DNA from: Paramacrobiotus metropolitanus
Taxonomy: Eukaryota > Tardigrada > Eutardigrada > Parachela > Macrobiotidae
Length of the DNA stretch: 64,000 nucleotides
NCBI RefSeq assembly: GCF_019649055.1
Contig: NW_026570325.1
Coordinates: 310,001-374,000 of the forward strand
Direction: 5' to 3'
Below the pieces are notes generated by a model, which ran no database searches, was not told the DNA's origin, and saw only the letters and a program-made list of their open reading frames with translations. Below are positions 22,922 to 64,000 of this stretch, one piece after another; position 1 is the first letter of the stretch, and each line of letters begins with the position of its first letter. Made by a program: the position numbers and the translations under genes.

Positions 22922-24851
22922 TCAGGGGTAGGTCCTCCAGTATTCCGCAACATCGTTGGGAAGTGGCTTACCTTCACGATTTGCGAGGTACTGGGCAGTA
23001 TCCGGGCGAAATTGTCGAATTAAACCGAAGCTTCCGGTTTCTAATCTCTGAAGGAGCTCAGTAGCGCTTGGCCGTGCCTGCGGATTGAGTTGCAAACAGG
23101 TTTTAATAAATTCTTGGACGTTTGCCGGTATCCACTCGTCAATGCGAGGTAACGCTTTGTTGCTGTGCACGTGATATATTATCGCCATTTCAAACGTTAT
23201 GGGCTTTCCTCTATCGCCAATGTACAGCGGCGGAGCACCGCTCACCAAATGCAGCACAACGCACCCAAAACTCCAAATATCGCACTTTCTTTCCAAGTTT
23301 ACATTTGCAGTATAGAATTCCAAGGTTTCCGGAGCGGCAAACCGCCCATCCTGTCCTTGCTGGGCATTCATTTCGGTTCGGAAATTACGATCCATTTTTC
23401 TATTATTACGGCCTATATGTTGCCACATTATGTAATGAAAACCGCCGATCTTGATGGTCCCTTTAAAACCGGCGGCGCTAAAGAGAATATTGCCGCTGTT
23501 GATGTTGCGATGGACGATGCGGTGTCCGTACAGATACTGTAGACCTTGTAGCACCTCCCTTGTCCACTTAGCGATAATGTCGATGGGCAGTTTGTATTTA
23601 GCCGCTTCTTTCAATGAACCTCCTGAAGACGACAGCACGGTAATTTTATTTTTTCATACCCACCAATCTGGAAAAAGTTTTGCCGGATTACTTTATTTCG
23701 ACAAACCTAAAGTACGGGCTTTATTGAGTCAGTGTATTTAAACCGCATTCACAGTAGTCCTCTAGCATAAATTTATTCTTAACTTGCGTTGGCATCCGTG
23801 TACTGATTCATGCATAATCTCAAATACGTGATTTAAAGACTCACTGCTTTAGATTTCTGACACGACGTACCTGCGCAATGTTCCGTAACAACTAGCATCT
23901 CTTTTGAGAAAACCCAGTTGCTGACCTCAACGCACTTACAGCCCAAGTTCTGTACAACATTTTTGCTTCCCTCTTGCAGTTCTCGAATCCTACAAATACT
24001 AGCCCATTCTTCTTTGTTGGCTTCCATAGTCAATGCATTAACTAATTGCTTCAAAGACGTCCACAAAACACGCTGCCTCTGCTGCTCTCTGTTGACATGG
24101 AATGCAAAGCGCCACATATCCGCTGCCCGCGGCTGACGATGTTCGTATACGAGTTCACCTTGCTGGTGTAGCACCGTGGCATAGGCGATCATTAGGACCG
24201 CGTGACCCCTAGATTCTTTCGGTTCTGAGGCCTCCTTAAAGGACAGTTGATGCTTAAAAAGCGCAGTATCGAGTGCAAAAAGCTCCTCCGTTGATTTGCT
24301 TGGGTCGAGAAAGGGATGAGCGCGCAGCTGTTGGAGACTCCACCGTTTCGCTGGGTCAACCGCCAAACAGCGACCCAAAAAGTCTTCGCAAACGGATGGT
24401 ACCGGTCTAGCAAGCTTGAGTTTTGGCCCAAAAAATAGTTTTTTGTGCTGTCCCACATTCTTATACAATGCCTGCAGTCTCGGTAGCAGCGGTTGCTTCA
24501 AATCAAGCACGTGGGAAACATTTCGCATATGTCGGGAAAGTTCCAGTGGTTGTTCGTTGTCGATAAACCAAATGGTTAAGCATCCCAGAGCCCAGGAATC
24601 GACTTTGCTGGTGTCGCCGGTGGAAGCTGGTAACGCAGCAACACCTTCCGGTGGGATGAAAGCCACATTAGAAGAACTTGCGTTTATCCAATGTGTCCAC
24701 AAATTCAACAAGGGCCGTGAGCTGCCGAGAACAGCTGACTGAAAATTTGGCAAAACTACGTTATCCGGAAATATTCCTCCATGACACCGCTTTGAATGGA
24801 CTGCTGTGACCAAGACGGCGCGAATATCTCGGCGCGTGCTGTAGAAATCAT
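22922..24851 (-). CDS. Tandem pseudokinase K3 (subfamily I)
   Basis: Exons 24851-23871 (donor GTACGT) and 23622-22922 (acceptor GTCTTCAG), intron 248 bases, phase 1. Domain 1 C-lobe: RCHGGIFPDNV, FIPPEG, DSWALGCLTIWF, DPAKRWSLQQLRAHPFL. Domain 2: hinge VVTEHCAG, then GLQYLYGHRIVHRNINSGN, IKIGGFHYI, AAPETL, DIWSFGCVVLHL. Degenerate motifs as in K1. The usual acceptor in front of domain 1 (TTTTTGTAG in K4) reads TTTTCGTGGAAG here, so the splice site is weaker or shifted. Frame stays open further upstream to 25068, leaving the exact 5' boundary uncertain. An upstream hydrophobic exon (25380-25101) is listed separately. Confidence 0.8.
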
Positions 24852-25100
24852 CTTCCACGAAAATAGTCCAAGGATGGGCACGGATTTGGTCCTTGATCGT
24901 AGCATCCAACCCTAGCCGGATTTTTGTTACAGTTACTTTACTGCCTAAAATTTTATAGCCATTGAGCTCCTGGGCAAAACAAATCAGATTACTGGAAAAG
25001 CAAACGTACCGTATGTAGAATGTGCAGGAGTCTAATTGAATTATGCAGTAGTAGTAAAATTTTTGCAAAGGTTCGAATGACTAAAATGAGTCTAAGTTAC

Positions 25101-29046: not shown

Positions 29047-31079
29047 TCAAGGGTGGGTTCTCCAATGCTCCGCAACATCCACGGGAAGTGGCTCACCTTT
29101 ACGATTTGCAAGATACTGCGCAGTATCCGGTCGAAATTGTCGAATTATACCAAAGCTTCCGGTTTCTAATTTTTTAAGGAGCTCATTAATACTTGGCCGT
29201 TTCTGTGGATCGAATTGCAAGCAGCTTTTAATGAAGACTTGGACGCTTGTCGGTATCCACTCGTCAATGCAAGGCAATGCGTTTTTGTTGATGTGGAAGT
29301 GGTATTGAATAGCAATTTCCAATGTTATCAGCTTGTTTTTAGGGCCAGTGTAAAGCGGTGGTTCACCGCTGACCAAATGCAGAACAACACACCCCATACT
29401 CCAAATATCGCTCTTCCTGCCCAGTTTCTCATCTGCAATATGGAAGGCAATGCTTTCCGGAGCGGCAAACCGTCCATCCGGTTCCTGTCGGTCTTTCACT
29501 TCTTGTGGTGAACTACAGTGAAAAGGTGAATCTGGGTCCGCTTCATATCGCCGCATGTAATGAAAACCGCCGATCTTGATGGTACCCTTGAAACCGGAGT
29601 CGCTGAAGAGAATATGGCAGCTATTAATGTTGCCATGGACGATGCGGTGTCCGTACAGATACTGTAGACCTTGCAGCACCTCCCTAGTCCACTTAGCGAT
29701 GATCTCGATCGGCAGCTTATATTTAGCTGCTTCTTTAAATGAACCTCCTGAAAACGGACATTATCTCAGTTAAAAATTTTTTAATGCATACCCATCAAAG
29801 TTGACCAAATTTTCCCGGATTGCTGTACTATATTCTCGGCGATGCTGTTAGTGTTACTATACTTTATAGCATATATTTGGCTACGAATCACCATTATTGA
29901 GTCAGTGCAGGTCTACACCAAAATAGTTGCTCTAGTTGTCGCTGACAAATTTATTCTTGAATTGCTTTGGCATCCTTCTATCAATTTTAAGTTGTACAGT
30001 ATTTGTAAATGTTTTGATGGTTCGCTGCTTCAGAATATTGCGACTACCTGCACAGTGTTCCGTAATAAGCAGCATCTCCATTGGGACAGTCGAATTGCTG
30101 GTACCGAAAAACTGACAGCCAAAGTGCTGCACAACATTTTTACTGCCCTCTTGCAGTTCTCGCATTCTGCATATAGTAGCCCATTCTTTCCTCCAGGCTT
30201 CCATCGTCAACGCATTAACCAACTGCCCAAAACAATTCGTCCACAAACTGAATTGCCTCTGCGGTTTTTTCTCTATGTATCCGCAGAACGTAAAGCGCCA
30301 GATATCCACTGGCCGCCTCTGGCTGAGACCTGGATGTTCGTATATGAGTTCACCTCGCTGATGCGATACCATTGCATCGTAGCTGTGAAAAACCGGATGT
30401 TCCCAGACGTTCTTCGAGCCAAACATCTCTTTAAAAGAGCATTCGCTTAGAAAGGACCTCTCTTTGAAAAGCTCAAGATCTAGCGTGAAGAGCTCCTCCG
30501 TCGATTTACTTAAATCCAGGAAGGGATGGTCACGCAGTTGTTGCAGACTCCATCGTTTCGCTGGGTCAAGCTTCAAACATTGTCCCAGAAAGTCCTCACA
30601 GACGGATGGTACCGGTCTACTCGGATTAATTTTTGGACCGATAAGCAGGTCGTTGTGCTGCCCCGCCGTCTTATACAATGCCTGAAGTCTCGGTAGTAAC
30701 GGTTGCTTCAGATGAAAGTTATGAAACACTTCGGCACGGGAAATGTAGCGCATATGTCGGGCGAGTTCCAGCGGTTGGCCGTTGTTGATGAACCAAAGGG
30801 TCAGGCATCCCACCGCCCAGGAATCGGTTTTGCTGTTGTCGCCGGTGGAAAGTGGTAACGCCAGAACACCTTCCGGTGGGATGAAAGCCACATTAGGAGA
30901 ACTTATGTTTATCCACTGTGTCCACAAACTTAACAAGGGCCGTGCCGCCCCGAGAACAGCAGGCTGGAAATTGGGCAAAACTACGCTTGTCGGAAATATT
31001 CCTCCGTGACATGGCTCTGAATGGATTGCAGTGACCAGGACTGCGCGAATATCGCGGCGCATGATGTGAAAATCGTCAT
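29047..31079 (-). CDS. Tandem pseudokinase K4 (subfamily I), HGN catalytic loop
   Basis: Exons 31079-30048 (acceptor TTTTTGTAG, donor GTAGTC) and 29747-29047 (acceptor CGTTTTCAG), intron 300 bases, phase 1. Domain 1 C-lobe: PCHGGIFPTSV, FIPPEG, DSWAVGCLTLWF, DPAKRWSLQQLRDHPFL. Domain 2: FKEMFGSKNVWEHPVF, ALTMEAWRKEWATICRMREL, KNVVQHFGCQF, hinge ITEHCAG; then YLYGHRIVHGNINSCH, where even the catalytic-loop Arg is lost (HGN), IKIGGFHYM, AAPESI, DIWSMGCVVLHL. A longer insert (PDSPFHCSSPQEV) lies in the activation segment. An upstream exon with a hydrophobic segment (31613-31342) is listed separately. Confidence 0.82.
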
Positions 31080-31341
31080 CTACAAAAATAGCTGAGGATC
31101 TGCGCGAGTTTTGTTTTAGTTTGCAACACCAGCCCCAGCGGATAGGGGGAAATTTTTTTTTGCAAATTGCAATCACGGTTTTAAATTTTGTTTGCACTAA
31201 AACTGATAACACCTGAACAGAAAAAAATAAATAGGTTTTTGCAACGCACAACGGCACAAGTTTGTACGTCTATCTGATATCAATCTGAAGTAATAATAGA
31301 ATTTGCGAAAAGGTTCGAATAACTGAATGAGAATAAATTAC

Positions 31342-33016: not shown

Positions 33017-34799
33017 CTAGTTTCTCCAATGCAGCACAACATCAACAGGAAGTTGCTCGCCCTTACGATTTGCGAGATACACAGGGGTATCCTGCCCCAG
33101 GCTTTCGTTTTCTAAATTTTGAAGAAGCTCGGCAGCGGCTAGTCGTTCCTCCGGATCGAACTTCAAACATGTCCTAACGAATTCCCGGGCCTTGATCGGT
33201 ATCCAGTCGTGAATTTGAGGCAGCTTCTTGTTGGCACTGTTGAGCTGATAAAGAATCGCCATTTCCGTTAACATGGGCTGATCCTTTGCGCCGGTGTATA
33301 ACGGTGGTTCACCGCTTAACAAATGCAGCACCACACATCCAAGGCTCCAGATATCACACTTCCTTCCCACGTTTACATCCCCCGTGTAGGAATTCACAAT
33401 TTCCGGAGCGGCGAACCGTCCGTCCTGTCCGGGCCGGGCGCTTACTTCGTGACATTCAGTGCGGTCCTTTTCCAGTTGCCGCATATACTGAAAGCCTCCG
33501 ATCTTGATGATTCCCTTGAAACCAACTTCGCTGAAGAGGATGATGCTGCTGTTGATATTGCGATGCACGATACGGTGTCCATATAAATACTTGAGACCCT
33601 GCAGAACTTCCCGAGACCACTTAGCAACGATATCGATAGGCAGCGCATATTCAGCTGCATCTTTGAACGAACCTCCTAAAGGAAAGGCCTTTTATGATTA
33701 CCTTTACAAAGCTTGCTTTCCTGTACAACTTTACTTTGTAAACGTTACGAAATGGTTTTAGGGTTCACTGTTTTAGATTTTGGCTGCAACGGACCTGTAC
33801 AATGCTCCGTAACGACATGTATCTCCATTGGGAAAGCCAGGTGTCTTGCTTCGACCAACTGCCGGCCAAAGTGCTGCACAATGTTTTTGCTTCCCTCTTG
33901 CAATCCTCGCCTGCAAATGCTAGCCCATTCTTCCGTGCTGGCTTCCATAGTCAGCGCATTAACCAGCTGGCCAAAAGCCTTCCACCACAAAGCGCGTTTT
34001 TCCTGCAACTCTCTCTCCTCTTTTCCATATAATGCAAAACGCCAGATATCTGCCATCCGCGGCGGACGGTTACCGGGAAGCTTTTGGACGAGTTCACCCT
34101 GCTGATGCGGCAGCCCTGCATCATCGCTCTTTAGCACCGGATGATTCCTCACGTTCCTTAACTCAAACACCTCCTTAAAGGACAGCCTATGTTTAAAAAG
34201 CTCGGCTTCTAATGTGAACAACTCTTCCGTCGATTTAGTCAAATCCAGGAAAGGATGAGCACGCAACTGCTGCAGACTCCATCGTTTCGCCGGGTCCAGC
34301 TCCAAGCAGTGACCCAAAAAGTCCTCACAGACAGATGGAACCGGTCTAATCAGCTTGATCTTTGGGCCGATGACCATGTTCTTATGCTGCCCCGTCGGAG
34401 CATACAGTGCCTGCAGTCTCGGCAGTAGCGGTTGTTCCAGGTGAAACACCTCGACACCGGAGGCATAGCGCATATGCCGGACCAGTTCCAACGGCTGGTC
34501 GATGTTGATGAACCAAATGGTCAGACATCCGAGTGCCCAGGAATCAGCTTTGCTGGTGTCACCGGCTGAAGCTGGTAACGCTGCCACGCCTTCCGGTGGA
34601 ATAAAAGCCACATTACGAGAGCTCGCGCTTATCCACGTTGTCCACAAATTCAACGGGTTGTGTGCAGGTCCGAGAACTGGTGGTCCGAGATCATCCATAG
34701 CAACGTTCTCGGGAAATATTCCTCCATGGCATGGCTCGGACTGTGTAGCCGTCTCCAAGACGTTGCGAGCATCGCGGCGAATGCTTTGGAAGTCGTCAT
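33017..34799 (-). CDS. Tandem pseudokinase K5 (subfamily I), split by a retroelement upstream
   Basis: Exons 34799-33795 (donor GTCCGT) and 33675-33017 (acceptor CCTTTAG), intron 119 bases, phase 1. Domain 1 C-lobe: PCHGGIFPENV, FIPPEG, DSWALGCLTIWF, DPAKRWSLQQLRAHPFL. Domain 2: ALTMEASTEEWASIC, KNIVQHFGRQL, hinge VVTEHCTG, then GLKYLYGHRIVHRNINSS, IKIGGFQYM, AAPEIV, DIWSLGCVVLHL. Unlike all other K genes the first exon is not preceded by AG: the sequence reads TTTTCGTG just before ATGACGAC, so its splice acceptor seems lost. A 1365-bp LTR element separates this exon from the upstream hydrophobic exon at about 36589-36720. The gene may be in decay although the resolved frames are open. Confidence 0.75.
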
Positions 34800-35137
34800 C
34801 ACGAAAACATCACAAGGTTGGAGCGCCCAGTCTGAATGCGTTGACTCAGAGCCATTCGGGCATGGGTAAAGGTTTTTTAATTAAGGCTTGGATTTCTTCG
34901 AACACCAAAAGCACTCTGTGTATCGGTTCAAAGCGAGTCTCGTAACTCTCGTTAGGATTCAGCAAATACTCTTCTCGAGGTGGTGGCTCCTTCGCGAACC
35001 GTATCTGTGGGCGTGCCCTCTTCATACAGTTAGCTTGCTGTGGTTGAGCAACCGTACCAAAGCTACCTTAGATTCGCCTTAAAATCGAGACACGTGCTAA
35101 TGCAGCCCGTGAATCAGTTTTTAGATTATAGGATACG

Positions 35138-45454: not shown

Positions 45455-47261
45455 CTACTGCCTCCAGTATTCTGCAACGCCTTCCGGAAGAGGATTTCCG
45501 CCGCGTGATGCTTCATACACAGGGTAACCAATATTGAATACTCCGCTTGTATCAAGTATGGCGGCATATGGCCGGTTTGCGGGATTAAACTGCAAACATT
45601 CTTCAACGAAACTCCGTACACTGCATGGTATCCAGTCCGGAATTTCCGGCAAGATTTGGTTGCTCTTCAGGTGGTATAGCACAGCCATTTCCAACTCGAT
45701 AGGCTTACCTTTGGCTCCTTTATACAGCGGTGGCTGACCACTGGCCAGATGCAGCGCAATGCACCCTAGGCTCCATGTATCACACTTGCGTCCGGTGTGC
45801 AGGTCGTGCTCCTTTTGAGCGTCCATCATTTCCGGGGCGACAAAACGCCCATCATCTCCGCGACGAACACTAATCCCGTTCAGGACGGACGCGTCACCTT
45901 TCAGCTCCACATGTCGCATCAAATGGAAGCCGCCAATTTTTACGGTGCCTCTGAATGGATACTCGGAGAAAAAGACAAGGCAGCTGTTTAAATTGCGATG
46001 GACGATGCCGTGTCCGTGAAGGTATTTAAGACCTTCCAATACCTCCGAAATCCACCTCCCAGTCAAATCAATTGGTATATGATACTTCGCAGCGTCGTTG
46101 AAGTTCCCTCCTAAAAAAACATTTACCAATTTATGGGACACTTTGCTTGTAGTTGGTTGATTTTTCATGACGCATGCCTATCACCTGGACAGTGCTCCGT
46201 AAATACTTGAAATTCCATTGGGAAGGACTGATGTGCTAAAAACTGGCATCCGAAATGATGCACCACATTCTTGATCCCCTTTTGTAGAGCCCGTATGCCG
46301 TAGTAGACAGCACGCTTTTTGGTTTGAGCATCGGTATCATTTTCCATGGTCAACACGTCCTCGAGTTTGCCAAACGCATTAATCTTCACTCGACGCGCTT
46401 CTTCTACTTGCTTCGCATCCCGACCAAATATCACGTAACGCCAAATCTCGACGTTCTTCTCTGGATGATGGCCGCCGTCAGTCCACTGAAGATCCCCAAC
46501 CTGAACCGTCAGTGTTGGGTCGCTTCCCATAAACGGGTGCGGTCTTCTGTTGGTAACGATGAACTTTCCTTCGACCGGCTGCAACAGCTGATAATGTGTG
46601 GCATCCAGTGCAAACAATTCAGTGAGCGAAAGATTCAGATTGAGAAACGGCAGCTGGCTTAATTCATGAAGACCCCATCGTTTCGATGGATCCGGTTCCA
46701 TGCAGTGAGCCAGAAATTCTTCACAAGCGCATGGTACTGGGTGTAGCAATGCCATTTCCGGACCGACAGCAAGACCGGCTTGACCGGCATCTTTGTATAA
46801 GTCTTGGAGCTGCTGTAGCGTGGCACAATCACCAAGATATTCAGGTTTAGAAAAACGATTTTGCCGTTTAAGCTTTAGTGGCGCATCACAATTAATCAGT
46901 TGGATTGCCAAGCATCCCAGCGCCCAACTGTCCACTTTGCTGAGATCATCGATTAACGCGGGCAGTGCGACGATACCTTCGGGTGGAATATACGCGATAT
47001 TGTCGGAGCTCTCGTTTATCCATTTCGTCCACAGTTCACAGACGTTTTTACGATCGCCCAACACCGCACAATCTTGATCTTTTATCCATTGCATCAATCG
47101 TTCGGCGTCAGTTTTAAAATTGGGATTATCCTCAAAAACGCCGGAGACGTTATCCCGGAATATTCCTCCGTGACATGGCGGAGATTCCGTCATCACCTCC
47201 ATAGCGGTGCTTAGCACGGTGAAAATGTAATGTCGAATGATTTCCAGTTCTTCCTGCACAC
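45455..47261 (-). CDS. Tandem pseudokinase K6 (subfamily II)
   Basis: Exons 47261-46185 (acceptor CTAATGTAG, donor GTGATA) and 46110-45455 (acceptor TTTTTAG), intron 74 bases, phase 1. Domain 1 C-lobe: VQEELEIIRHYIF, PCHGGIFRDNV, an extra loop around KTDAERLMQWIKDQ, YIPPEG, DSWALGCLAIQL, DPSKRWGLHELSQLPFL. Domain 2: N-lobe with KNVVHHFGCQF and hinge FTEHCPG; C-lobe YLHGHGIVHRNLNSCL, VKIGGFHLM, VAPEMM, DTWSLGCIALHL. HRN and GGF replace HRD and DFG. The same insert is present in K7 and absent from K2, so K6 and K7 are nearest relatives. 5' exon(s) not resolved. Confidence 0.83.
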
Positions 47262-48416
47262 CTACATTAGAAGGCCATGAAAGACAGTTTGTACTTTGTA
47301 CTAGAAACCCCACACGTTGGCAATACTTACCTTACCAGGTTACAAAAGTAAAAAAAAGCAATGTCTTAAAAAATCTACAAACAATTTCTTTAAATTTTTA
47401 TAATGTACTGTTAATTTTTTCATTAAATCCCAAATTTGTCGTAAAGGTATTAATGCTTTGAGTCTTCTTTTTTTACATGTGCGCGAGCAAAACCATTTAC
47501 ATATCTTTCATGACAAAATCAGCATTTATTACCGTCCTAATTAATTAGCATATGTACTTACTCTGATCATGTTGTGCCATATTGATACGTGTATCCAAAC
47601 GACTGTGCCAAAGATTTTATATTGTACAAACTCTACTGCATGAAGTACCGTATCACCTGATTTACCTTAAACCGCACTGCCGTAGCCAACCTGTGCCAAC
47701 CAAGCGCCGTTTAGCCCGTTAATGTGCCGAGTGAGTGTTATATTGGCTCTGTACTTTTGCGGTTCTACGGCATAATAAATTCTGCGAAGACAGACACGAG
47801 TCGTTATCAAAAGCAAGCAGCCCGTCCTAATTGCAGACTGATAAAAATTTTCATCGGCAGGAAAACGATGGTATTACGCATCAGCGCGCCAAACGGTAAA
47901 AGAACACTACGAACTATCTATTTTCAGTGCATTGACTTCCATGTGCCGGTAAATTCCGGCCCGCTGCATTAGAGTCCTACCTAGATGATTCATGCGTCTT
48001 GTTATCAAAAGTGGTTTTAACGCCTGCGTCATTTCCGTTTTGTCTTGACTTATATTGCGCAGCGCCCGGCACCTGGTGGCATAATATTATGTGCATGACT
48101 TTGTTTTATACTCGTTCGTAAGTAGTATGGAAGCGTTATTCAATTCACACTATTTCAAACCTAGACGCAAACCTCAGTTAGCTTTGTATATTACGTTAAA
48201 TCGCTCTTTAAATGCTTAAAGCAGTTTTTTTCAAAACCAGACGACACATTTTTTAAAAAATGCTAATAAAATACTTGAACAAATTTTATCAGCGTCAAAA
48301 GGTTAACTAGCAAAAAGTACGTTGTCGTGCATTGACAGACCGGAGCGAGAATTAAGCAAAATTGCCGTATAGGTCTGCACAAGATTAGTACATTGCGGAA
48401 AAAAATTAATTAGCGT
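47262..48416. other. Intergenic; 5' flank of K6 with conserved block
   Basis: Holds the K6 copy of the conserved upstream block (47786-47860: tcgttatcaaaagcaagcag ... gactgataa) and 'cgcctgcgtcatttccg' near 48022. The ORF 47724-47972 runs through this block and is not called as a gene. Confidence 0.45.
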
Positions 48417-50251
48417 TCACTGCCTCCAATATTCAACAACGCCTTCCGGGAGAGAAGTACCGCCGCGCGCTGATTTGTACACAGGGTCATCAATATTAAC
48501 ACACAATAATCCGCTCGTATCAAGTTCAGCTGCATATGGCCGGTCGGTCGGATTAAACTGTAAACACGTAATAACGAAGTCTCGCATTTGATGTGGTATC
48601 CAATTAGGAATTTCTGGTAGGGTTTTGTTGCTCTGCAAGTGATAGAGCACAGCCATTTCCAGCTCAATGGGCTTGTCTCTGGCTCCTTTATACAATGGCG
48701 GTTGACCACTGGCCAGATGCAGAGCAATACAACCAAAACTCCAGGTATCACACTTTCGACCGGTGTGCAGGTCGCTCTCCTTTTGGGTGTCCAACATTTC
48801 TGGTGCGACAAATCGCCCATCTTCGCCGGGACGGGCGCTAATTCCGTTCTTCTGGGAGGTATCACCTTCCAGTACCACCTGGCGCATTAAATGGAAACCG
48901 CCAATTTTAAGGAAGCCTTTGAATGGGTTCTCGGTGAAGAAAATTAGGCTGCTGTTTAAATTGCGGTGCACGAGTCCGTGTCCATGGAGATACTTGAGGC
49001 CTTCCAGGATTTCCAAAATCCACTTCCCGATGACATCAACCGGTATATGATAAAGCGCAGCATCCCTCAAGTTTCCACCTAAAATTTACATTGTTATGTT
49101 ACTGCAGAAAAACGAACTCATTCTTAAATTCCATAGAGATATTTTTTAAGTTTTTAAATGAGTACGGTTTCGCTGCTCACCTGAACAGTGCTCCGTGAAA
49201 ACTTGGAATTCATTTGGAAGGGACGGATGTGAATAGAACTGGCATCCAAAATGATGCACTACATTCTTGGTGCCCTGTTGTAACGCTCGTATACCGCAAT
49301 AATCAGCCCTCGCGTTTGAACGAGCTTCTGCACTACTGTCCATCATGGTCAATACGTTCACCAATTTGCCGAATGCCTTAATTTTTCCTTGCCGCGATTC
49401 CTCAATCGCGGCCGCGTCGCCAAAGAGCACGAAGCGCCAAATATCAACATTTTTCTGCTCAATGCGGCCACTGTCAAGCCATTGAATAACCCCAACCTGA
49501 ACCGTCATTGCTGGGTCGCTTTTCATAAAAGGGTGAGGTCGAGTATTGGTAATACTGTATTTGCCTTCAATCGGTAAAAGCTGCTGATAGTCGGCATCAA
49601 GCGCAAACAAGTCCGACAGTGAACGCTTTAAATCGAGGAATGGAAGCCTCAGCAGGTCGGCTAAATCCCACCGGTTAAGCGGATCTGGTGTCAAGCAGCG
49701 CGCTAAAAATTCTTCGCATGCAACCGGCACAGGTTTAATCAAGTGCATTTCCGGACCGACCACTAATCCGGGTTCACCAGCACCTGCGTAAAACTCCTTT
49801 AACTGTTGCAACGTGCCACCATTGCGGAGATGGTCACTCTTGCCGAAACGATTTTGCCGCTTGAGTCCCAATGGTACATCACAGTTGATCAGGTCGATCG
49901 CCAGGCATCCCAACGCCCAGCTATCAACTTTTTCGAGATTGCCAGCTAACTTCGGCAGCGCTGCGATACCTTCCGGAGGAATGTACGCGACGCTAGAGGA
50001 GCCCTCGTTAATCCATTTCATCCATAATTCTAAAACGTTTTTCCGATCGCCCAATTTCGCGGAATCTTGATCCTTTATCCACTTTTTCCACAGTACGGTC
50101 ATAGGTTGCGAACCATCATCATCAAAAACGCCAAAGACGTTTCCACGGAAAATTCCACCATGACATGGCGGAAATTTTTCTGTCACCGTGAGCGCTGCGG
50201 TCAGTATCGTGAAAATGTAATGTCGAATGATTTCCAGTTCTTCTTGCACAC
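48417..50251 (-). CDS. Tandem pseudokinase K7 (subfamily II)
   Basis: Exons 50251-49181 (acceptor TTTTGTAG, donor GTGAGC) and 49078-48417 (acceptor AATTTTAG), intron 102 bases, phase 1. Domain 1 C-lobe: PCHGGIFRGNV, insert with VLWKKWIKDQD, YIPPEG, DSWALGCLAIDL, DPLNRWDLADLLRLPFL. Domain 2: KNVVHHFGCQF, FTEHCSG, then YLHGHGLVHRNLNSSL, LKIGGFHLM, VAPEML, DTWSFGCIALHL. Motif losses as in K2 and K6. The exon after the acceptor (GTGTGCAAGAAGAACTGG) is almost identical in K6. 5' exon(s) not resolved. Confidence 0.83.
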
Positions 50252-51385
50252 CTACAAAACATCTGGTTTCGTTCGGAGATTCAAAACGTGAGTTAGAGTT
50301 TTATAAAAACAAACCGAAAAGCATAAGAAAGGAAACAAAACCTTTAATAACCGCTAATAAAAAATGGCAAAAATCTAATAATACCGAAATCGATTCTAAA
50401 ATGAAGACTGAGGTCAGCTTGCATGTCTGGAAGAGACATCCGAAGCAGCCTCAACTGCCAAAATTTATTGCCATATTCATCCAGCCGCTTACCCGGATTT
50501 TGATCGGCCATTCTTGGCACCCGAATAATGTTTTTCGAGGAAAGGAAACGCTTTGGGCAAGTACCGACTGTATGTGCTAGTATTACCTATCCGCGATTGC
50601 CCAACCGGAAAGCACCATGCATGCCCTTAACAGTACAAATGCAGCGCAGCGTATGAAATTATGAATGCATGCTTGATGCTTCGTACTTCTGCGGTTCTAC
50701 CTACATAATTCGTGCAACACAGGCAGGCGCGAGGATTGCTTATCAAAAGCAAATAGTCTGTGCTAGTTACAAACTGATAACAGTTTTCATCGACAGGCAG
50801 CCATGGCATTATATGCACATCAACCTGGTAAACGCACTAGTGCAAACACACACTGGAAACATACCCGCAAACACATACGTTATTATGTCGGTAAATTTAT
50901 CTAACGTCAAAGCACAGTCCTGTGTTGGTGATTCATGCGTCTGGTCAAACGCCTGCGTCATTTCCGGTGAGCGCTGATTCAGCGCTGCGTCACAAAAACG
51001 GTGTTACGTGTACCGTAATGATACACTATGCGGTGCAGACGCTTTACGTGATTCTAACAGTTACAGTAATAACAATCAAAATTGTTGTACCGCTAGGTTT
51101 ACGTTCAGTTAAGTCAATGTTTTTGCCAAATTGCCCTAATTTGTAATCTTTGGGAGTTGCTGTTGATCTCTAAGTTTTCATGTCAGGCTGCCTTAACCTT
51201 TTTTATACAGCGAAACAATCAAAGTAACTCTAGTTACTTGGCAGTTGGCATTAACCAGTTCAACGGCATGCTTTTATTATTCACCATTATTAGATTCATG
51301 TGCTGTACTAACATAAAAAGGAACGCTGTAAATTTTTTTTTGTGGTGCAATCAGACAGAATGTTGTATAAAAAATAAAAAGTACA
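50252..51385. other. Intergenic; 5' flank of K7 with conserved block
   Basis: Contains the K7 copy of the upstream block (50720-50800: gcttatcaaaagcaaatagtc ... aaactgataa) and 'cgcctgcgtcatttccggtgag' near 50950. No gene; the ORFs here are not conserved. Confidence 0.45.
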
Positions 51386-54300
51386 TTATTTTAAAATAAA
51401 AGTCAAATCTTCCCATGACAGACACCTACGAGGTTTGGGGAACTCAACGTTCCAAAAAAAGATGTCGACCGGTATCGTAGATATCACTGACGGTTTTAAT
51501 TTGGCGTATTTATGGTAATACACGGCGATAACGTAGGTTAGAATGGCATTAGGGAGCCTCCACGTTGTTTTCTGAATTTCCCCAACTGTTGAATCTTCCG
51601 CTCTCGTAAGGGTATGATATTCAAGTGACTTGATCAGATTTGGCAACTCTGTTTCCGTTGTGCATCCTCTTCCTTGCAGCAACTGCAATAAGACTTACGA
51701 TTATTACCATTTTTTGCATAAACTGCAAACAATACCTGCTGTGAAGTGCGCTTCTTTTTACATTAAATAAAAAATTCTAATTTTGTGCCGGCTGCTCGAC
51801 TGACACAATTCGATGCTACAGAGTACGTACGCATTAAAGAGAAATAACAGCCACAAATGATGTAGGCACCACAGTGACCACACAACGTCGAGATTCTATT
51901 GCAATAACTTACGTCTGGGTTGCGAAGGACTTTCTCCATGATTCTGTAGTACACAACCAGCCAGTGAGGATAGCAGTCAGGTTTTGTGAGCCCCGGAATT
52001 CCCTTGCTTTCTTCTTCAACGGCCTTGAGGATGAAAGTCGGCAGTGCTTCCAGGTCGGCCAGTAAGCGCAGTTGTTCGCTGGTATTTATGCGCGAACTAA
52101 GAGAAATGGAAGTAATTATTTGCTAGCATTTAAGTGATGATGAAGAGATCTTTTTACTTTGCTCCTCCATTGATATGGGCGAAAAGTTCCTGTCGGGCTT
52201 TAACGTAAAATGGCTTCTCCAGTGTAAAATAATGGTTATCCTTGGCGAGCACCGAATTAACCCTTTTAGACGATATTGGTTGGTTACCAATAACCAAGTA
52301 TCCAAGCTCCGCGAGACGTGAACAAAGTGCCTCCGATGTCTCATCGTTTCCGAGGTTGAAATCGATCTCCACATCCTGGTTCTGTTGGGGATTTTGAGTG
52401 GGTATGCCAGTACTCTTGCCAGTACTCGGATCATACTTTTTGAGAACGTTACCCACTGGCGACAATTTGCTGAGTGTTGCTTGGTTTCCGCTAAAAGGGC
52501 ACCCGCGAAAGTCTTTACTCTCGAAATCTCGGGAAACCTCCTTAAAGCCACCCAGTATGAGGAGTAAGGTCAAGTTGAAAATGTCCACATCTTCGTAGCA
52601 CTTTAGCATGAGTGCGTCAATAAAACTTGGCGCCGTGCATGTCTCGGTAACTCTGGGTTTTTGAGCACAGGTTGGATCGTTTTGGTCCCAGGAAATCAAA
52701 CCAATGGCTTTGTGATCTAGAGTAATAAGAGTGTGAGACAAATAATTCATTCGTGTGCAGTATGGTAAAAGCCAAAAATTCCACTCTTTGCGGCGCGTGC
52801 TTTTATTTCATACACAGGTATCTCAACAGCAGTATTAAATTTTGAAACTAATGCTTACGAATGCATGTGAGAATCTCTTCTGGCAATGTCTGATTGCGAA
52901 ACTCTTTCAGGTACTCCGTAATGGCTGCCGTCACCAGCACGGCATTGACATGCCGGTAGAAATGTTTGGGCAACATCGGCCAAATCAGTTCGGCTTCCGC
53001 ATCTGATTTCTTCCATTTTTCTGACTGTTTTTTGGGTAGTTCGCTGGCATCCACCACGACACAAATCCGGCTGTCTTGAAGGTTGACAGCACGTAGATGG
53101 CTAGGATCTGCTGGATTTCCCTAACACATAATATATTGATGACTCAGTTCTACAAATGCACTGGAAGCGCATATACAATGATTTTCGTTACTTGAACGAG
53201 AAGGATATCGGGAAATTCCTTTAAGGTGGGCCATTCTTTGGCTAAACAATCGCGTTCGGCCAGAATAACGACTACCGGCGGGTTGATATGAACGGCTCGC
53301 AGCGGCTTAACGAAGTTGACCAGTCCAATGGGGGCGGGGTCTCGGTCGGAGACAACGCAAATAACGATATGCTGCTCCAGCTTGGACGGCAGCGCGTTTT
53401 CGAGTTCGTGCGGCAGCTGAGTAAGCATGATGAGCGCACCAGCGATATGATTATTCTTTTATACTTATTTTCCTATATTTACCGTATTTTAGCAAATGAC
53501 TTACCTTAACCGAAGTTTCGGCTTTGGCTAGCTGGTAGCGCCAGTACTGTCCAGTGCTGTCACAAGCAATATTTTGGGCGCCGCATTCTTCCACACTATA
53601 AATAATATCATATTATCACCGTGTCAGAAATAGTTGCTACAGTAGGACCATTTTGTCCTTATGCTGTTTGAAAATTTACTTTTACTAGTAGAATTCGTTG
53701 CAACTCTTAAAAACTTGTATACCATTCAGTATCCGTGCTCAAGGCAATTCGAATCCGTCTTCTAGCATCTCTGTCATCTTGTACGGGATTATTGGGTTGG
53801 ACTATTGCGTTCTGTCCGGCACGTGCTAACGAAGCTTTTCCATTTTGCATCATTGCCCACCTGCGCGCAGTACTATTCAGCTCGCTGTTCGATGCATTGG
53901 TAATGAGGAAACATTTGGCGCCCGGTTGCAGAAAAAGATGCTTCTGAGGATACAGATGATATTCACCGTCTTGTAGTACGGCAAACAATGTGCCCTGGCG
54001 TTCAAACGTCCGCTACGATAAACAAAATCAAGTCATCTCTGACAACTGCACCGGCAACGATTAACCAAAAATGCAGGAAAACACAGTACGCCGTTACCCG
54101 TGCATCAGCATAGGTCAAGTTTCCGGTAATAGTACGACCAGGCGCCGCCGTCGCATTCAACGGTGCAAGGGCCGGTTCAGCAGGTGCGATCACAATTAAT
54201 GCCACCTCTTCACGGGGTTGCGCCGCAATTGGGCTTCCACGTCTTCTGTTGTTGCGTGCAGAATTAGACTCCACGTTAACAACTGACTCTGCTTGATTGA

Positions 54301-56883
54301 CAGCCGGTGCCGTTGAAGTGGAAGATCCGGCGCGCATGTCATTATTGGGTGTGTTCGCAGGGGCTGCAACTGCCGTTGGTACCGGCAAGGTAACTGCTTT
54401 CACAGTGGGACCTTTCTCTTCGCCAAACCACTGATTGATCAGCTGAGGAAACCCGGGTGCAAAGTAGCGCTGCGCCAAAAGGGCAAACTGGAATTCTGCT
54501 GTGCAGATTATTTGATCGGCCTGCTGCTTGGTCGCTGGATCGCTTTTGTCGCGCCAAAATGGAATATGGTAAAATTTTTCCTGAGGAAAGCTTTAATTTG
54601 CACTTAGCCAGTTTTCGTATTCGTGAATAACTAAAAACTGCCTTACAATCTACGTTAATGTTGTAGATATTGAATCGTAGCAGATTCTTTCTCGTTGTAG
54701 AAATATCAGTTTTACCTTGTTTTCAAACATAAGAATTTTGACAATCACCCTCGTGTTGCGGTGGCGTTGCTTCATTTTATTGACCCGCAGGAAATTGCAG
54801 TGGTCTTCTTCGGCAAAATTAGACGCGTTTTCGTTGGCGAAAAACAGGGCACACTGACAATTATCGAAAACTTGATTCTTTAGATCATCGTTCTCAAAAA
54901 GCGAACCGGAAATAACGCTCAGTCTGTCTTTGTGCTTTCCAGCTACCGTGTGCATTTCTTCGACGGCAGCATCGTTAGTGGTGGGACTATAAAAAACGTC
55001 CTTTAGAAGTTTTTGTAGGCAAACTCCACAAGTACAGGTATCACTTACTCCACAAGTACAACGATTTTTTCTTTAGGATTGGTCGAACGAAACCTCTCCG
55101 CAAACTTCTCCACAGCGTCAGAGTTGACCGAACCAAGCAGTAAAATAAACCTGAAAGGTCAATTTGTACGTAACTTTATACAACAGGCGGAAACCGAAAG
55201 CCCTTTACTTGGTGTCCTTTCTGGTATAAACTGCGCTGAAAGAATGTATGCGCAATATTTTCGGCAGTTGCTTGAACATTTCCGGTATAATTTGTGCCAA
55301 GAAAATCTGCAAGGTTTTTTTGCGTATGGATGGCATTTCAAAGCACAGCTTTATTTACATGATCATGCGGAAAACGTCAGCCTACGCACCAGAGTAACCG
55401 CCTGGGCAACGTAAACCGAAATTCTGCCTATTGTGGTTTCCAGCTGCCCTGATGTTAAATCTAGGAACACAAGCTTGCCGTATAGAAACGCCACTAGTTT
55501 TCCGTACGTTAGATCTTTCGGCGTTGTGTAGGTTGATAACCAAGGATCACCCAGTGTTTCCACCTGCGAAAACATTAATGCAGCGAGGAAGGTTATACCC
55601 GCCCAAATGGGAAAACGGTTTGAAAAACCATACCAGTTGGACCCAGGCAGTTAGGCTTAGAAACGAGCATACAATCCAGGTTATTCGGCGCATGACCGTG
55701 CCTGCGGCGATTGGTAGTTTCCGGAAGATGCGAATGATCTCGTCGCATAACCAGGTAAAACAAAAAATTCGTAAAAACTGTAGACCTAGAACCATAATAT
55801 TGTATTAGTTTTTCCCAGAACTTGATAACCGAATTGTCAACATACTGGTCGCTGTAACGTTCCAGTACGACAGCGGTTCGATGGGCCAGCGAGCAATAAT
55901 GATTATTTCGTAATATAAGAGCGGTATATTGGCGACACTAGCGAAGCATTCCCAGTCGCGAATGGCGCTCCATATTCGTTCTGCGAGGCATGTCGGTTCT
56001 TTGCAACAACCTTCTTCCTTTTTTCCATTTTCGTGACTTTCTACGGCAGTGGTGGAAGTAATTCCGCACGGTCTGTAATTCACCTACAAACGTATAATTC
56101 GGACCCAATTCATTGCAGTTTTGTCACAGTTAGAACAGAACTGAGGTTCTTGTGCTCACTAGGTTTAAGAACAGCAGCAGCAAAAGCGCAGCGTTAATTG
56201 AGACATCATCTTCAATCCAGAATCTAGTGCCGGGCAGCGTTTTGTAGTACCATCCCTGAGACAGTTTCCTTTAAAAAGCAGTAGGTAGTTAGTTAATCCA
56301 AGTAGGCAAAATTATTTATCAAATATTAAGCATGTAGCAAAATTTAGAAGCTATCTTACACAAAGTCACTTCCGAAATATGGTTGGAAAAAGTTGAAGTA
56401 GAGCGAGGTGAAACTCAGCACGAAAACAGCCAGTCCTCGCCAGTCAATTTGCTTGAGTGTTGTCCGCAGGAAAGATCCGATGCTGTTGAGTAATGCCATG
56501 CACCCATACCGACACACCAGCGAGACCAAACACTGACCGATGCCGATTACGAACAAAGCCACAAATATTCCAACCGAGGCGGTGTACGAGGTCCATGGCA
56601 AACAGGATAGCGCATTGACTCTACCGCAACACCGATATCATTGCAACTGTTTTGTGGAAAACTGCTATCTGCACGATTTTTTTTATGAGATTCTGATTTG
56701 TTGTGTGCGCAGTTTTTTCTGCCGCCACTAGCCAACTTACGCCGATGCGTTTTCCGGTTGAACCAGACGGCAGAGTCCATACGTTGCAAGCTGACTGAAA
56801 GCAGCGATAGGAGGAGATACACTAGCTGCAACGGAGGCATTGGCCGCGTAGGACTGATTTGCCAATGGCAGCGATCCATTCAT
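51386..56883 (-). CDS. Slo/BK-type potassium-channel homologue with a non-canonical pore
   Basis: Seventeen exons, all joined in phase: 56883-56741, 56620-56360, 56268-56160, 56083-55846, 55785-55634, 55563-55390, 55306-55209, 55150-55049, 54986-54716, 54580-54098, 54012-53723, 53595-53505, 53416-53192, 53120-52859, 52716-52158, 52096-51913, 51682-51386; 1312 residues. The glycosylation-prone N-terminus is followed by S0 (YTASVGIFVALFVIGIGQCL), S1-S4, LVETLGDPW, P-loop and S6 (IFLAQIIPEMF). RCK1 has CALFFANENASNFAEEDHCNFLR; RCK2 has HIVICVVSDRDPAPIGLVNF and AKEWPTLKEFPDILLV, as in Slo1. The filter position of TVGYGD reads FLDLTS, S4 reads LQFLRIFCF, and the calcium bowl is reduced to DQNDP. 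Membrane channel by family; K+ selectivity, voltage and Ca2+ sensing are doubtful. The C-terminal two exons have no Slo1 counterpart I know. Confidence 0.88.
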
Positions 56884-57813: not shown

Positions 57814-60800
57814 ATGGCCGAAATTTATGCTGGAGATTTCCAGCACAAGCGTAGCATGGGAAGCTCCATTACGTATCAAGTCGCGCTTTTTAAAGATGAA
57901 GGGCCAAGTAGCCCAACGAGAGCCGGTGAGGATGACATTCCGTTATGTGGAAAGCCAGCGGATGCGTACTTCGAAGTTTCCGGGTTTGGAAGATTTGCGA
58001 AAATGACACCGTTGCCCACCACAGCCGAACTCACGATAGTACCATCGCTGCGGGCCGATGCAAAAAACGAAATGGACGAATTAAGAAAGCTGCTGAAACC
58101 ATTGGTGAATGCATCGATGGACGAAAACAAATATGTCCAGAAGTATTACGGCGTTAGTTGCAAATGGGGGACGTCGGGACTACCTAGTGCATGCTACATT
58201 TTGACAGAGTGGTGCGAAGGTAAACTGATTCGAAACAGAAACACAACACATATTTGGTCGATAGTATAGTTTGGAATGCCTAGTTGCTTACCCTAACTGT
58301 TTCTCTGTGAAACGGTACTGCTCGTGCAAACGCATTAGATATGCACGCTGCCTGTGAGTTCTCTTCCCGTGCACGAACTCTGTAGTGCAGCTTGTGCGAT
58401 GCTAAAACAGTACGTTGTTAATGCATGGTAAGCACGATTCCCCAAAATAACATAGACCGTTCGTATGTGCATTTGCAGGCACACATGTTGCGCGCCGGTT
58501 GTTGCACACTGCGGTTTTAATTATGGGTTACTGTATCCGGTATTTAAATAACCTCAACTGGTAAAAGCTGAAAACCGTTCTCTTCAAGGAGACCGCTACT
58601 CGTAGGTTTGCCCTTGGACGAAGTTATGGTGAAGTTAGGTCAAAGGCCTACAGACTACGCTATTGTACGATGCGCAGCACAGGTACTGGAGGGTCTGCAA
58701 TTTCTTCACGACAACCAGATAATTCATCAGGATATCAAAGGAGCCAACATTATCGTATCATCCAGCGGCAAAACTTTGAAGATCACCGGCCTGACCAGAG
58801 CCAAGCACTTTACAGGGTCCTGCACACCTCCACGATATATCGAAAGCGCAACCGGCACGGTACCGTTTGCCTCACCGGAAATGGTAGCACTTTCGGTCTC
58901 CACGTCGAACCACGCAACACACGTCGGCCGAAAGACCGATATCTGGAGTCTAGGTTGTGTTATGGTACAAATGTTGAATCAAGGCCAACCTCCTCGTTTA
59001 ACTGATGGCGACTACGAAAGAAAGGACGCAAAGTCTCCACATCCATCGAATTTTAAAGAAATTCATCGTCTCTTTCTGATGGGATGCCGACCACACTTTA
59101 CACTGAAAAATGACAGCATACTTAAGCCAATTCTTGGTGGATGTCTAGCTATGGATCCGGATAGACGACTGCTTACTCGACAGTTAATCAGCCTTATTCA
59201 TGATTTGTACTATTTTCTCTTTTGCAAAATTACACCTGTTCGACAGCAGACTGAAATGCAGAGGTTTAGAGTGGAACGCTACAACCTTCTGCGGATACCC
59301 GAAGAACCAACTCCAGCGGAACCTGCAGAGCCGAATAGCCTAATACCAAGGTTTTTTGGAAATGACGACAATGTCGATGAACGGCTTAAAAATATGACGC
59401 TTCCTGAAATGGTCACAAAGAGCGTCCAACCCGATTGGGTTTCGATTATATCGCCGGTTAGGGACGATGATGCTCAGCAACAAACATTACTGGAAAACAA
59501 GCACAAGGTGTTTGAGCTGCTTATCAAATTTGCGTCGCAGACAAAATATATTATACACCACTATGCGGTAAAACCGGAGAATCCAACAACCGAACTGCGA
59601 GTCTTCACAGTAGTTGAAGGTAAGCCGGTTGTCTGGAGACTGGAGTGATAAATATAATTAGAAAATCTCCATTGTACGACAGTACAGAGTATAATGGAGA
59701 TTTCGCAGGCCGTTGGGCTCTGCGAAAGTAAAAAAATCGTAAGGTATCGCGGTTGTGAAAACCTCAGGGAGTATTGCAGGCAGCTTGCGGCAATAAAATT
59801 ATACCTTTGAATACCGTAATTCGTGCGATTCGCGCGCATTTCCTTTATGATGGCTTGCACTCCTATAGAAAGCGCTTCCACTCTCAGTTAATGGTTTTTA
59901 TTTTACCAAAGAATCCAGCTTAAAATTTTAAACGTAGAAAATCTGAGACTTCCGGCGTTCGTAACGATAAACAACCGCCCGGTGAAGCAGCTCGACGCGG
60001 TTTTTTCTAGCAAACTTTCCAGAATTCCCATTCTTTCTGATTTTCTTTTCTTTACGAAAAGAAGTTTTCCTGCACTACGTTCGTCAAACATATCAAAATA
60101 ATATTAAAGATTTTATGTGTACACAAATGTCGTTGTTTGGAAGCAAACTGATGCGAAATCAGCTGATCTGCTTTCGCGCTAACAGGAATTTAATATACAA
60201 CGTAAATCAAACGGAAAAAAGCGCGAGTGTTAACAAATAATAAGTCGATAAGTATAGCTCAGCGGGTAAAGCATTACATACCCTGATTTTGGTTGCAGAC
60301 ACCTACATGCTTTTATCTACCAGGATCACGCTGCGCATATTTCAACGTGAAATGATTTCTGGTTTCACTGGTCAGATACTAGAAGGGCTTGCGTTCCTAC
60401 ACCAAAACGGGATTATTCACAAAGATATCCGCTGCTGCAACATCTACGTGGACAGAGATATCGTGAAAATTGCTCATTTTGAGAAAGCAGCGTTCCACCA
60501 CAAGGACTCAATGTTGGGCACGTCCATAACGTATCCGGAAGGCTCGTCACAATTTGCTTCGAAGGAAATGCAGGAGCTTCTGGCTTTTGATGGCAGTAGG
60601 AGGGCAGGTCCGGTGGGACCGGCTACGGATGTGTTCAGTTTGGGTTGCACGGTGCTGGAAATGTATGCACGAAAGGCACCGGCATGGGTGTATGATAATG
60701 CGGATAAAACATCGGAAAAGTATAAGTTTCTGTCAGGCGACCGCACGGAAGGAGAGTTTGTTCGGCATCTTTATGAACTGTGGCAGCGCCAGGCCATGCC

Positions 60801-61622: not shown

Positions 61623-63538
61623 TCAAGAGTAATTCCCCCAGTACTCCGCAGTTTCAACAGGAAGTGGTTCACCACCGCGATTTGCGAGATACTCGGCGGT
61701 ATCCGGTTCGCTTGTCCCAAGGCATCCGGTTTGTAAGTTGTGAAGAAGCTCAGTAACGCCCGGCCGTTTATCCGAATCGAACTGCAGACAGGTTTTAATA
61801 AAATCCTGGACATTCGACGGTATCCAGGCATGAATCAGAGGCAGTTTCTTGACGGCGCTGTTAAGATGATAGAGAATCGCCATTTCCAGTATCATGGGCA
61901 GATTTTTTGCGCCTGTATACAGCGGTGGAGCGCCGGTAGCTAGCTGCAATACCACACACCCCACACTCCAAATATCACACTTCCTACCCACGTGGAGGTC
62001 CTCTTTATCAGAACTAACCATTTCCGGTGCTGCAAATCGTGCATCCTGTCCTTGCCGGGCACTTACTTCGTGTTTTGCAGTAATATCCGCTTCCAGTTGC
62101 CGCATATATTGGAAGCCGCCGATTTTAATGGCTCCTTTAAATCCGGCTTCGCTAAAGAAGATGACACCCCCGCTAATGTTGCGATGTGCGATGCGGTGCG
62201 CATGAAGATACCCAAGTCCTTGAAGCAATTCGTGTACGAATTTGGCGAGGATATGAAGAGTCAGTTTATAGGCAGCCACGGCCTTGAAAGTGCCTCCTAC
62301 GAATCGCATGTCATTCCTTAGTTTGACTAACATTCGGGTAAAATATTAATCATCCCAACCGATCAGCCCATAAGGAAAATTTAATATTTAACAGCATCAA
62401 GGCTGCGTAAGCACTACCGTTGACAATATTATTAGCAACGGTAGAGCATCGTGATATATGTATCCGTACATTGGAAAACTAGGCACCTCCGTTTAACAGT
62501 TTTCGGTAACTGCCGTACCTGGACAATGCTCTGTATAAACCTTCAATTCCATCGGCAACTTCTCGCATTGTGGCAATACAATTTCACATCCAAAATGCTT
62601 GACAATGTTTTTGTTCCCTTCTTGCAGTGCGCGTATTTTGTAAACCGCTGCCCATTTCCGTGTTTGCTCATGTGTACTGCCATCCATAGACTGGGCATCA
62701 ATCAGCTTACCAAAGGCTTTTATCCACAAATCATGCTCCGTCTTCATGGCTTTCGGCTCCGTGCTTCGTGTATTAAAGCACCAGATATCTACAGGTTTCA
62801 CCTCGCGGTGAGGGCCATCGCGGTATTGCATGTCGCCTAGTTGATGGAGTAAATGCAAATCATCGCTCTGCAGAAACGGATGCTTGCGCGTATTCGTTAC
62901 GATAATCGACTCGTTAAAGGACAATGTCTGGGGGTAATACGTTGCATCGATGTTAGACAACTCCGCTAATGAAATATCAAGATTGAGAAAGGGATGCTCG
63001 CTGAGTCGTTCTAAACTCCAGCGCTTTGCTGGATCCAGCTCCAGGCAGCGGCCCAAAAAGTCCTCACATGCGCAAGGAATTATTCCCACCAGATCCATTT
63101 CCGGACCAACAACGAGCCCCTTTTCCTTACCTGCATCTTTATATAACGCCTGCAGTTCCGGCAATAGTGATTTTTTCAGTTTCAAGTACTGGGCACCGCG
63201 CTTGAACCGCCAGTCCCGCAGTAGTATCAGGGGCTGACCAAAGTTGATCAGCTGAATGGCCAAGCAGCCGAGCGCCCACACATCGGCTTTACTGGTGTCG
63301 CCGGCTGATGCTGGTAAGGCTGCAACGCCTTCCGGTGGGATGTAAGCTACATTGGATGATCCGCCGTCGGTCCATGTCATCCACAGAGCTAGCGGGGTCT
63401 TCGCTTCGCCGAGAGTAGCTGTTAAATTCGTGGAAAAGCTGACATTGTCCCAGAAGACTCCTCCGTGGCATGGCGACTTTTCTTTGACAACTTTCAGTAC
63501 ACTGCAAAGCTGCTGCCGGGTGGTTTGCAGCGGGTCCT
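61623..63538 (-). CDS. Tandem pseudokinase K8 (subfamily I, most divergent)
   Basis: Exons 63538-62519 (acceptor GGTTGCAG, donor GTACGG) and 62296-61623 (acceptor ATTCGTAG), intron 222 bases, phase 1. Domain 1 C-lobe: PCHGGVFWDNV, YIPPEG, DVWALGCLAIQL, DPAKRWSLERLSEHPFL. Domain 2: AQSMDGSTHEQTRKWAAVY, KNIVKHFGCEI, hinge YTEHCPG; then YLHAHRIAHRNISGGV, IKIGGFQYM, AAPEMV, DIWSVGCVVLQL. Catalytic Asp is Asn and DFG is GGF. The sequence in front of the acceptor is also open (to 63572), as in K3 and K4. 5' exon(s) lie to the right and may be beyond the window. Confidence 0.82.
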
Positions 63539-64000
63539 CTGCAACCAAATAATTTTCTGAACGGTTGGGCAAAATTCAGAGAAACTTATTCAGGTACCTC
63601 CTTTTTGACCATAAGTACGTCTGACTGATGCAATAAGAGCTAAAGATAATTGAGAGAATACATAAATTACTAATGTATAACTTCAACCTCCAGTTTGCAA
63701 ATGCTACAGAATAATATTACGGAGACGATGCGTTAACACCACCCTGTATCGCTAATCGATACATTCAGAACAAGATTTGTGGCTGTTCTAAATCGATGAC
63801 GAAACATATGCGCGCAATAAAAAGGTACTGAGGTAAGGTAAATCACCTTCTGTCATCGTGATTCACCGCTTAATGATTCCAACAGGATGTCAACATACTG
63901 GGAAGCGAGATCAAGAAGCAGTGATAATTTGCAGTCTGTTACCCGCTGCAGCTGACGGCAGAAACCGGTAGTTCTATCAGTGGAACATGAAAACAGCCAG
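63539..64000. other. 5' flank of K8, no exon resolved
   Basis: A small candidate exon could lie between an ATCTTTAG acceptor and a GTACCT donor on the minus strand (about 63597-63640), but it is too short to support. Otherwise nothing recognised. Confidence 0.3.

Follow-up and report, generated by a model that had tools for sequence, protein, structure and literature searches.

Comparisons across the genome of the tardigrade Paramacrobiotus metropolitanus show that at least 13 of its Slo1-like genes keep Slo similarity and channel layout while carrying a conserved, non-canonical P-loop. One of them lies in the window (the 64,000-nucleotide stretch of DNA analysed here), where the original prediction had placed a Slo/BK channel homologue whose K+ selectivity filter is replaced; we have high confidence that this gene encodes a conserved Slo homologue in which the filter has been replaced. 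Few motifs in biology are as strongly conserved as the TVGYG filter. Here 13 genes of a single animal show its replacement and not simple damage, with one form of the new loop (the B form) present in another tardigrade. Judged from sequence, the replacement is the mark of a conserved family rather than of one odd gene, and this filterless group is Slo by descent and architecture and lacks the selectivity filter of a K+ channel. Its members fall into two subfamilies, A, which includes the window gene, and B.

The literature that we searched, from whose scope many subscription papers fell outside, yielded no description of tardigrade Slo filters or of filterless Slo proteins. One report ties a Ca-activated K+ channel, duplicated in two tardigrades, to anhydrobiosis signalling (PMC5531438), and the filterless genes therefore bear on tardigrade physiology.

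The Slo gene of the window

As predicted, all 17 exons of the gene join in phase, and the joined translation matches the NCBI protein LOC129597455 (P0001, 'uncharacterized protein') with 100% identity over its full length. The layout below was placed largely by alignment to C183, a canonical Slo1 of the same genome; the AF2 helices are those of a low-confidence model of the paralogue P0002.

51386..56883, minus strand: filter-replaced Slo gene of subfamily A, 17 exons, 1312 aa, in-phase GT-AG introns throughout (LOC129597455)
56360..56620, minus strand: exon 2, S0 (PWTSYTASVGIFVALFVIGIGQCLVSL) and S1 (RGLAVFVLSFTSLYFNFF); alignment to C183, helices in the P0002 AF2 model
56160..56268, minus strand: exon 3, S2 (DDVSINAALLLLLFLNL); alignment to C183, P0002 AF2 helix
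55846..56083, minus strand: exon 4, S3 preceded by an enlarged S2-S3 linker; alignment to C183, P0002 AF2 helix
55634..55785, minus strand: exon 5, S4 (LQFLRIFCFTWLCDEIIRIF) and S5; alignment to C183 and BK
55390..55563, minus strand: exon 6, S5 end, GDPW turret, pore helix, replaced filter and first half of S6; translation and alignments
55450..55488, minus strand: conserved P-loop core FLYGKLVFLDLTS; column counts over the filterless sequences
55450..55467, minus strand: FLDLTS, where the K+ filter TVGYGD would stand; aligned without gaps to Aplysia BK and C183 Slo1
55209..55306, minus strand: exon 7, remaining half of S6 (IFLAQIIPEMFKQL) with the linker that leads to RCK1; alignment to C183
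54098..55150, minus strand: exons 8-10, RCK1 as far as ...LINQWF, with a long linker; alignment to BK RCK1
51386..53416, minus strand: exons 13-17, RCK2 and C-terminal part; Pfam, BK match and translation

Several kinds of comparison bear out the assignment to the Slo/BK group. Pfam finds Slo-like_RCK (PF22614, 4.9e-27) in two stretches of the window protein, with a match in RCK2 at residues 817-921, and every one of the 29 PDB sequences that it matches with an E of 0.001 or less belongs to the Slo family, Aplysia BK being the best (7.7e-36); the KCNU1 gating ring (1.6e-24) and KCNT1 (0.0002) are among them, both below the best Slo1 entries. Alignment to C183 (TMSTVGYGD) places S0-S6, S5-P-S6 and RCK1 in the window protein, and RCK2 was placed through the Pfam and BK matches. 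The BK_channel_a domain (PF03493) scores 18.6 bits in the window protein against a cut-off of 26.8. Within A it rises above the cut-off in one exon of C295 (28.7 bits), and for the seven A proteins found Slo-like_RCK is the sole Pfam listing; within B it is over the cut-off at all five loci and is also listed for the B proteins P0010 and P0011. Single-chain AF2 models of P0002 (subfamily A, 71% identical to the window protein; weak, with a pLDDT of 51) and of P0010 (pLDDT 61) were matched by Foldseek to Slo1 (903 aligned columns, 2.4e-24) and to Aplysia Slo1 (8.9e-26), respectively. With low TM-scores (about 0.3) and a large rmsd, these matches lean on local and sequence similarity, and the models were used for topology only; they predict pore helix, loop and S6 in that order.

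FLDLTS lies at 55467-55450, exactly where the original prediction had put the replaced filter. The translation of exon 6 runs VETLGDPW...LTYGKLVAFLYGKLVFLDLTSGQLETTIGR, with GT-AG borders and phase 0 at either side; of the predicted exon start LVETLGDPW, only the leading L has to be given up, as it belongs to the last codon of exon 5. The part from LTY to IGR is 30 residues long and aligns without a gap to both C183 and Aplysia BK, in agreement with the predicted equal length. The further claim that nothing had been deleted stands for S5-S6 and fails elsewhere, where the S2-S3 linker is longer, RCK1 shows small gaps and there is no acidic Ca-bowl run. An alternative splice restoring TVGYG had been named as a possible objection; reading 57000-51380 in all three frames of the minus strand gave no G-Y/F/L-G in contiguous, unsplit codon runs, and the NCBI protein is identical to the joined exons.

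Two other readings of the pore region and its surroundings were set aside. Exon 4 might seem to skip from S1 to S4, as though S2-S3 were missing, but alignments with paralogues and the canonical gene show a complete S0-S6. That the YG of FLYG might be a displaced GYG is unlikely, because the gap-free P-loop length and the flanks fix the register and because the AF2 models set this YG within the pore helix.

The sensor sites of the window gene are partly lost (residue numbers are those of human Slo1). S4 retains one of three Arg, with the R210 position kept and Cys at the R213 position; the D153 place holds Asp, and the places of R167 and D186 are lost. P0010 and P0011 likewise have one S4 Arg, with Asn at the R213 place, and keep D153, R167 and D186, the countercharges of the voltage sensor. 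As for Ca2+ sites, the window gene has Asn at the Asp367 place of RCK1 and a non-acidic stretch (TEYLKEFRNQTLPEEILTC, by inspection of the translation) at the bowl place of RCK2. The RCK1 Asp is retained at 5/5 B loci, and of two B genes read through the RCK2 bowl, C11b is acidic (FLDEEDTDLPGTEFY) and C120 non-acidic. Three subfamily A proteins, P0003, P0004 and P0005 (LOC129597459, LOC129597460 and LOC129601900), are longer by ~320 to 440 residues where the RCK2 Ca bowl would lie.

Among known channels, the window gene is most like Slo1/BK (KCNMA1, slowpoke), with which it shares S0-S6, two RCK domains, the GDPW turret, the length of the P-loop and its best sequence matches. It differs from Slo1/BK in lacking TVGYGD, two of the three S4 Arg, the Ca-bowl run and the RCK1 Asp, as well as the Gly pair of the S6 hinge. 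Slo2 (KCNT) and Slo3 (KCNU1), of the same RCK-ring superfamily, are also matched by the window protein; unlike the window gene, they have an intact K+ filter.

Filterless Slo genes and the conservation of their loop

A search of the P. metropolitanus assembly (169.8 Mb, 533 contigs) gave 68 Slo RCK domain matches and 25 BK_channel_a matches, which we grouped by hand into 30 loci plus that of the window gene; C183 and C107b might each be two. About 31 Slo-like loci are thus present in this one tardigrade genome (on C11, C14, C107, C105 and other contigs), a few of them as an RCK2 match only; most animals have few Slo genes. P-loops were read by tblastn and a splice-aware aligner, or from NCBI proteins where present, and could be read at 27 of the 31 loci, the exceptions being C107b, C18, C84 and C323. 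Twelve are canonical (TVGYGD, in one case TVGFGD), two aberrant and 13 replaced. Some of the splice-aligned models contain wrong exons, among them C11c after S6, C14b, C120 at S3-S4, and C105a and C105b near the RCK1 linker.

Subfamily A comprises eight genes (the window gene, C46, three on C105, C295, C103 and C283) with a FLYGKLVFLDVTS-like loop, and subfamily B five (C120, C14b and three on C11) with a YLYGRVTLLDLSG-like loop. In place of TMSTVGYGD, the replaced P-loops have the consensus [FY][LIV]YG[KR]xxx[LIV]D[LV]x[SGT]. Tyr11, Gly12, Lys/Arg13 and Asp18 (of 30 columns) are retained in all 14 filterless sequences, a count to which C14b, known from its loop only, contributes its 30 loop letters. 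An S6 motif, [VI]YxxQ, is common to A and B and is not found in the canonical C183; loop and S6 look as if they had changed together. The two aberrant loci have altered filters, TMSTIGGSE at C3 and TMATIGSPD at C14d (C14:1303000-1306600), and both are otherwise open over S3-RCK1. One genome thereby offers a natural series on a single scaffold (TVGYGD; TIGGSE and TIGSPD; TLLDLSG; VFLDVTS), which lets one ask what else the S5-P-S6 fold can do and makes it testable whether a Slo gating ring still moves a pore that does not select K+.

The B loop is also found outside P. metropolitanus. A search with it returned two proteins within the length limits, P0010 (C11a of P. metropolitanus) and P0011, which is RvY_11543-3 of Ramazzottius varieornatus (loop FLYLYGRVTLLDLSG); P0011 and C11c are identical at 13 of 13 core positions and have an identity of 0.66 over the rest. 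Protein searches with A queries, which need shared 5-letter words, gave among the matches listed the A members of P. metropolitanus and two canonical Slo-like proteins, and no A orthologue from another species.

For trees, we included the splice models of C11c and C120, used the NCBI proteins P0003 and P0004 for C105a and C105b, and left out C14b, C107a (too short) and C45 (read later). In a maximum-likelihood tree of 27 rows from which the P-loop columns were omitted, A and B form a single clade (100/96) adjoining C3 + C14d (91/91), with B alone at 82/82. When the whole S5-S6 region was omitted, B still grouped with R. varieornatus (96/99) and A held together on a long branch (100/100), but the union of A and B was lost (55% of bootstraps; AU p 0.43, unrejected), as was the sister place of C14d + C3, which pair together in both trees. 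A common origin of A and B is thus suggested by the pore columns (loop and S6 motifs), and we grade it only as likely, since the clade disappears without them. Because the grouping of B with the R. varieornatus protein survives the loss of S5-S6, the B loop is most likely older than the split between Paramacrobiotus and Ramazzottius.

Selection was gauged by dN/dS, a check proposed with the original prediction. Comparison of the window gene with C46 over 348 codons (S3 to RCK1) gives a dN of 0.095-0.105 and a dS, near saturation, of 1.26-3.7 (NG86, YN00). The corresponding values are 0.079-0.083 and 0.59-0.82 for C105a against C105b, whose models, like that of C11c, were used despite wrong exons, and 0.053-0.057 and 0.55-0.66 for a pair with canonical filters, C325 and C22; several more distant pairs had saturated or undefined dS. 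The values for the window gene and C46 are of the order seen in the canonical-filter pair. Across the core (13 codons), these two genes show seven synonymous changes and no replacement.

The core is also better kept than its surroundings. Mean pairwise identity in the core is 0.83 within A (rest 0.58) and 0.79 within B (rest 0.54, without C14b, which is absent from the identity comparison), and 0.39 between A and B (rest 0.23); between nine canonical loci and B it is 0.04 (rest 0.32). The canonical genes have a core identity of 0.74 among themselves, against 0.36 for the rest, so the replaced loop is kept about as strongly as a working filter. Ranked by conservation among 13-column windows, the core comes 4th of 292 in A and 18th of 277 in B. 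Such tight conservation argues that the loop does a job, as a jobless loop would be expected to drift, and the replacement bears signs of selection, not decay.

These data weigh on the possibility that the filterless genes are pseudogenes or assembly artefacts, having lost the filter through relaxed selection in decaying copies. Some copies may indeed be partial, as the four loci without a readable P-loop (C107b, C18, C84 and C323) would allow; the RCK2 matches of C84 and C323 include stops, which carry little weight because matches elsewhere, including at C183, show stops as well. Against this stand the 17 open, in-phase exons, the low dN/dS, the synonymous-only core changes relative to C46 and the recurrence of the same kind of loop in paralogues (7/7 of the other A genes) and in another tardigrade. 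We therefore strongly disfavour decay, regarding it as extremely improbable, in keeping with the earlier statement that this is not simple decay. For the window gene, an isolated mutant, misassembly or pseudogene was rejected on the gene model, the NCBI identity, the loop columns kept in all filterless sequences, the R. varieornatus loop and dN/dS. Its nearest relatives, as placed by the tree without P-loop columns, are the seven other A genes with this kind of loop.

Possible roles of the filterless proteins

Selectivity for K+ needs the TVGYG carbonyl ladder with its two glycines. Because ladder and glycines are missing from the filter-replaced Slo proteins, a K+-selective pore in them is very unlikely, and their function is probably something else than potassium transport. 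Pore-loop channels without GYG have precedents, by analogy only, in CNG channels and in the side-chain filters of TRPV5/6 and bacterial NaV/CaV. In the ungapped alignment the invariant loop Asp takes the position of the first filter Gly, a place near the TIID of TRPV6 and the acidic locus of NaVAb/CaVAb. Unlike these precedents, the filterless proteins show no second pore helix in the AF2 models and have an extra conserved Lys/Arg.

Our preferred reading, held tentatively and with silent subunits next in order, is a remodelled, side-chain-lined pore or plug under the control of the gating ring. The proteins would form a Slo-type tetramer whose re-entrant loop makes a side-chain-lined constriction. 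Four invariant Asp would form a ring there, Lys/Arg would sit where the pore helix ends, and the gating ring would set the state of this constriction. Both a side-chain-lined pore and a salt-bridged plug would fit the loop. In four B sequences, S6 has Lys/Arg (GK, SK, AR, GR) preceding AIP or TIP, and the S6 Glu place in B is taken by Gln or Arg; these residues, together with the loop Lys/Arg, seem ill suited to an open cation pore, and the Lys/Arg-Asp pair could lock the loop shut. Bolder, and in our judgement unlikely, is a new tardigrade channel type in which the carbonyl filter has been swapped for a four-Asp side-chain filter (TLLDLSG or VFLDVTS) to give a cation pore driven by the gating ring, perhaps permeable to Ca2+ or Na+; the TIGGSE and TIGSPD filters would then be possible half-way forms. 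As for the input, the gating ring may still respond to Ca2+ in some B members, given BK_channel_a and the RCK1 Asp at all five loci and the acidic bowl of C11b (not C120), and that of the window gene, its Ca2+ sites lost, presumably answers to something else.

The filterless proteins could instead be silent modulatory subunits, non-conducting themselves, that join canonical Slo and alter its gating, trafficking or number in the manner of the silent Kv subunits (Kv5, 6, 8 and 9), an analogy only. Without GYG, a P-loop would be expected not to conduct, and in K+ channels mutants of GYG act as dominant negatives. Possible partners exist in the 12 TVG(Y/F)GD loci of the same genome, and P0010 aligns with Slo1 over S0-S6 and RCK1, B genes also retaining BK_channel_a. 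The A proteins, however, are only about 21% identical to nine canonical loci outside the P-loop, which makes their co-assembly with canonical Slo doubtful; this role is accordingly more plausible for B than for A. Tight conservation, moreover, would not be required of a dead loop, whereas the core ranks with the best-kept windows. The silent Kv subunits, for their part, have GYG, and their silence has other causes. Overall, we consider silent subunits a possible explanation, though a less probable one than a gated constriction.

A third option is that the membrane part is a mere anchor and the RCK ring a tethered sensor or scaffold that signals through binding partners. The losses in the window gene (R213 position, RCK1 Asp and Ca-bowl run) would suit such a role, as would the insertions of P0003-P0005 at the Ca-bowl place, since parts of this kind evolve freely while the fold is seemingly kept. 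Tethering leaves unexplained why the loop core and the S6 [VI]YxxQ motif are conserved above the rest, and it appears improbable to us.

Neighbouring ORFs in the window

An array of eight related ORFs, 36-65% identical, extends to both sides of the Slo gene.

15125-16276, 20075-21490, 23833-25080, 29932-31269, 33745-34809, 46165-47331, 49146-50300 and 62493-63575, minus strand: kinase-like ORF array

Members of this array weakly match the protein kinase domain over its C-terminal part (8/10 long ORFs scanned), and no such array was seen at 57 short loci (3-10 kb, many overlapping) around other Slo genes. Adjoining the Slo gene, a plus-strand ORF at 58572-59648 shows weak similarity to the array (21-28% identity).
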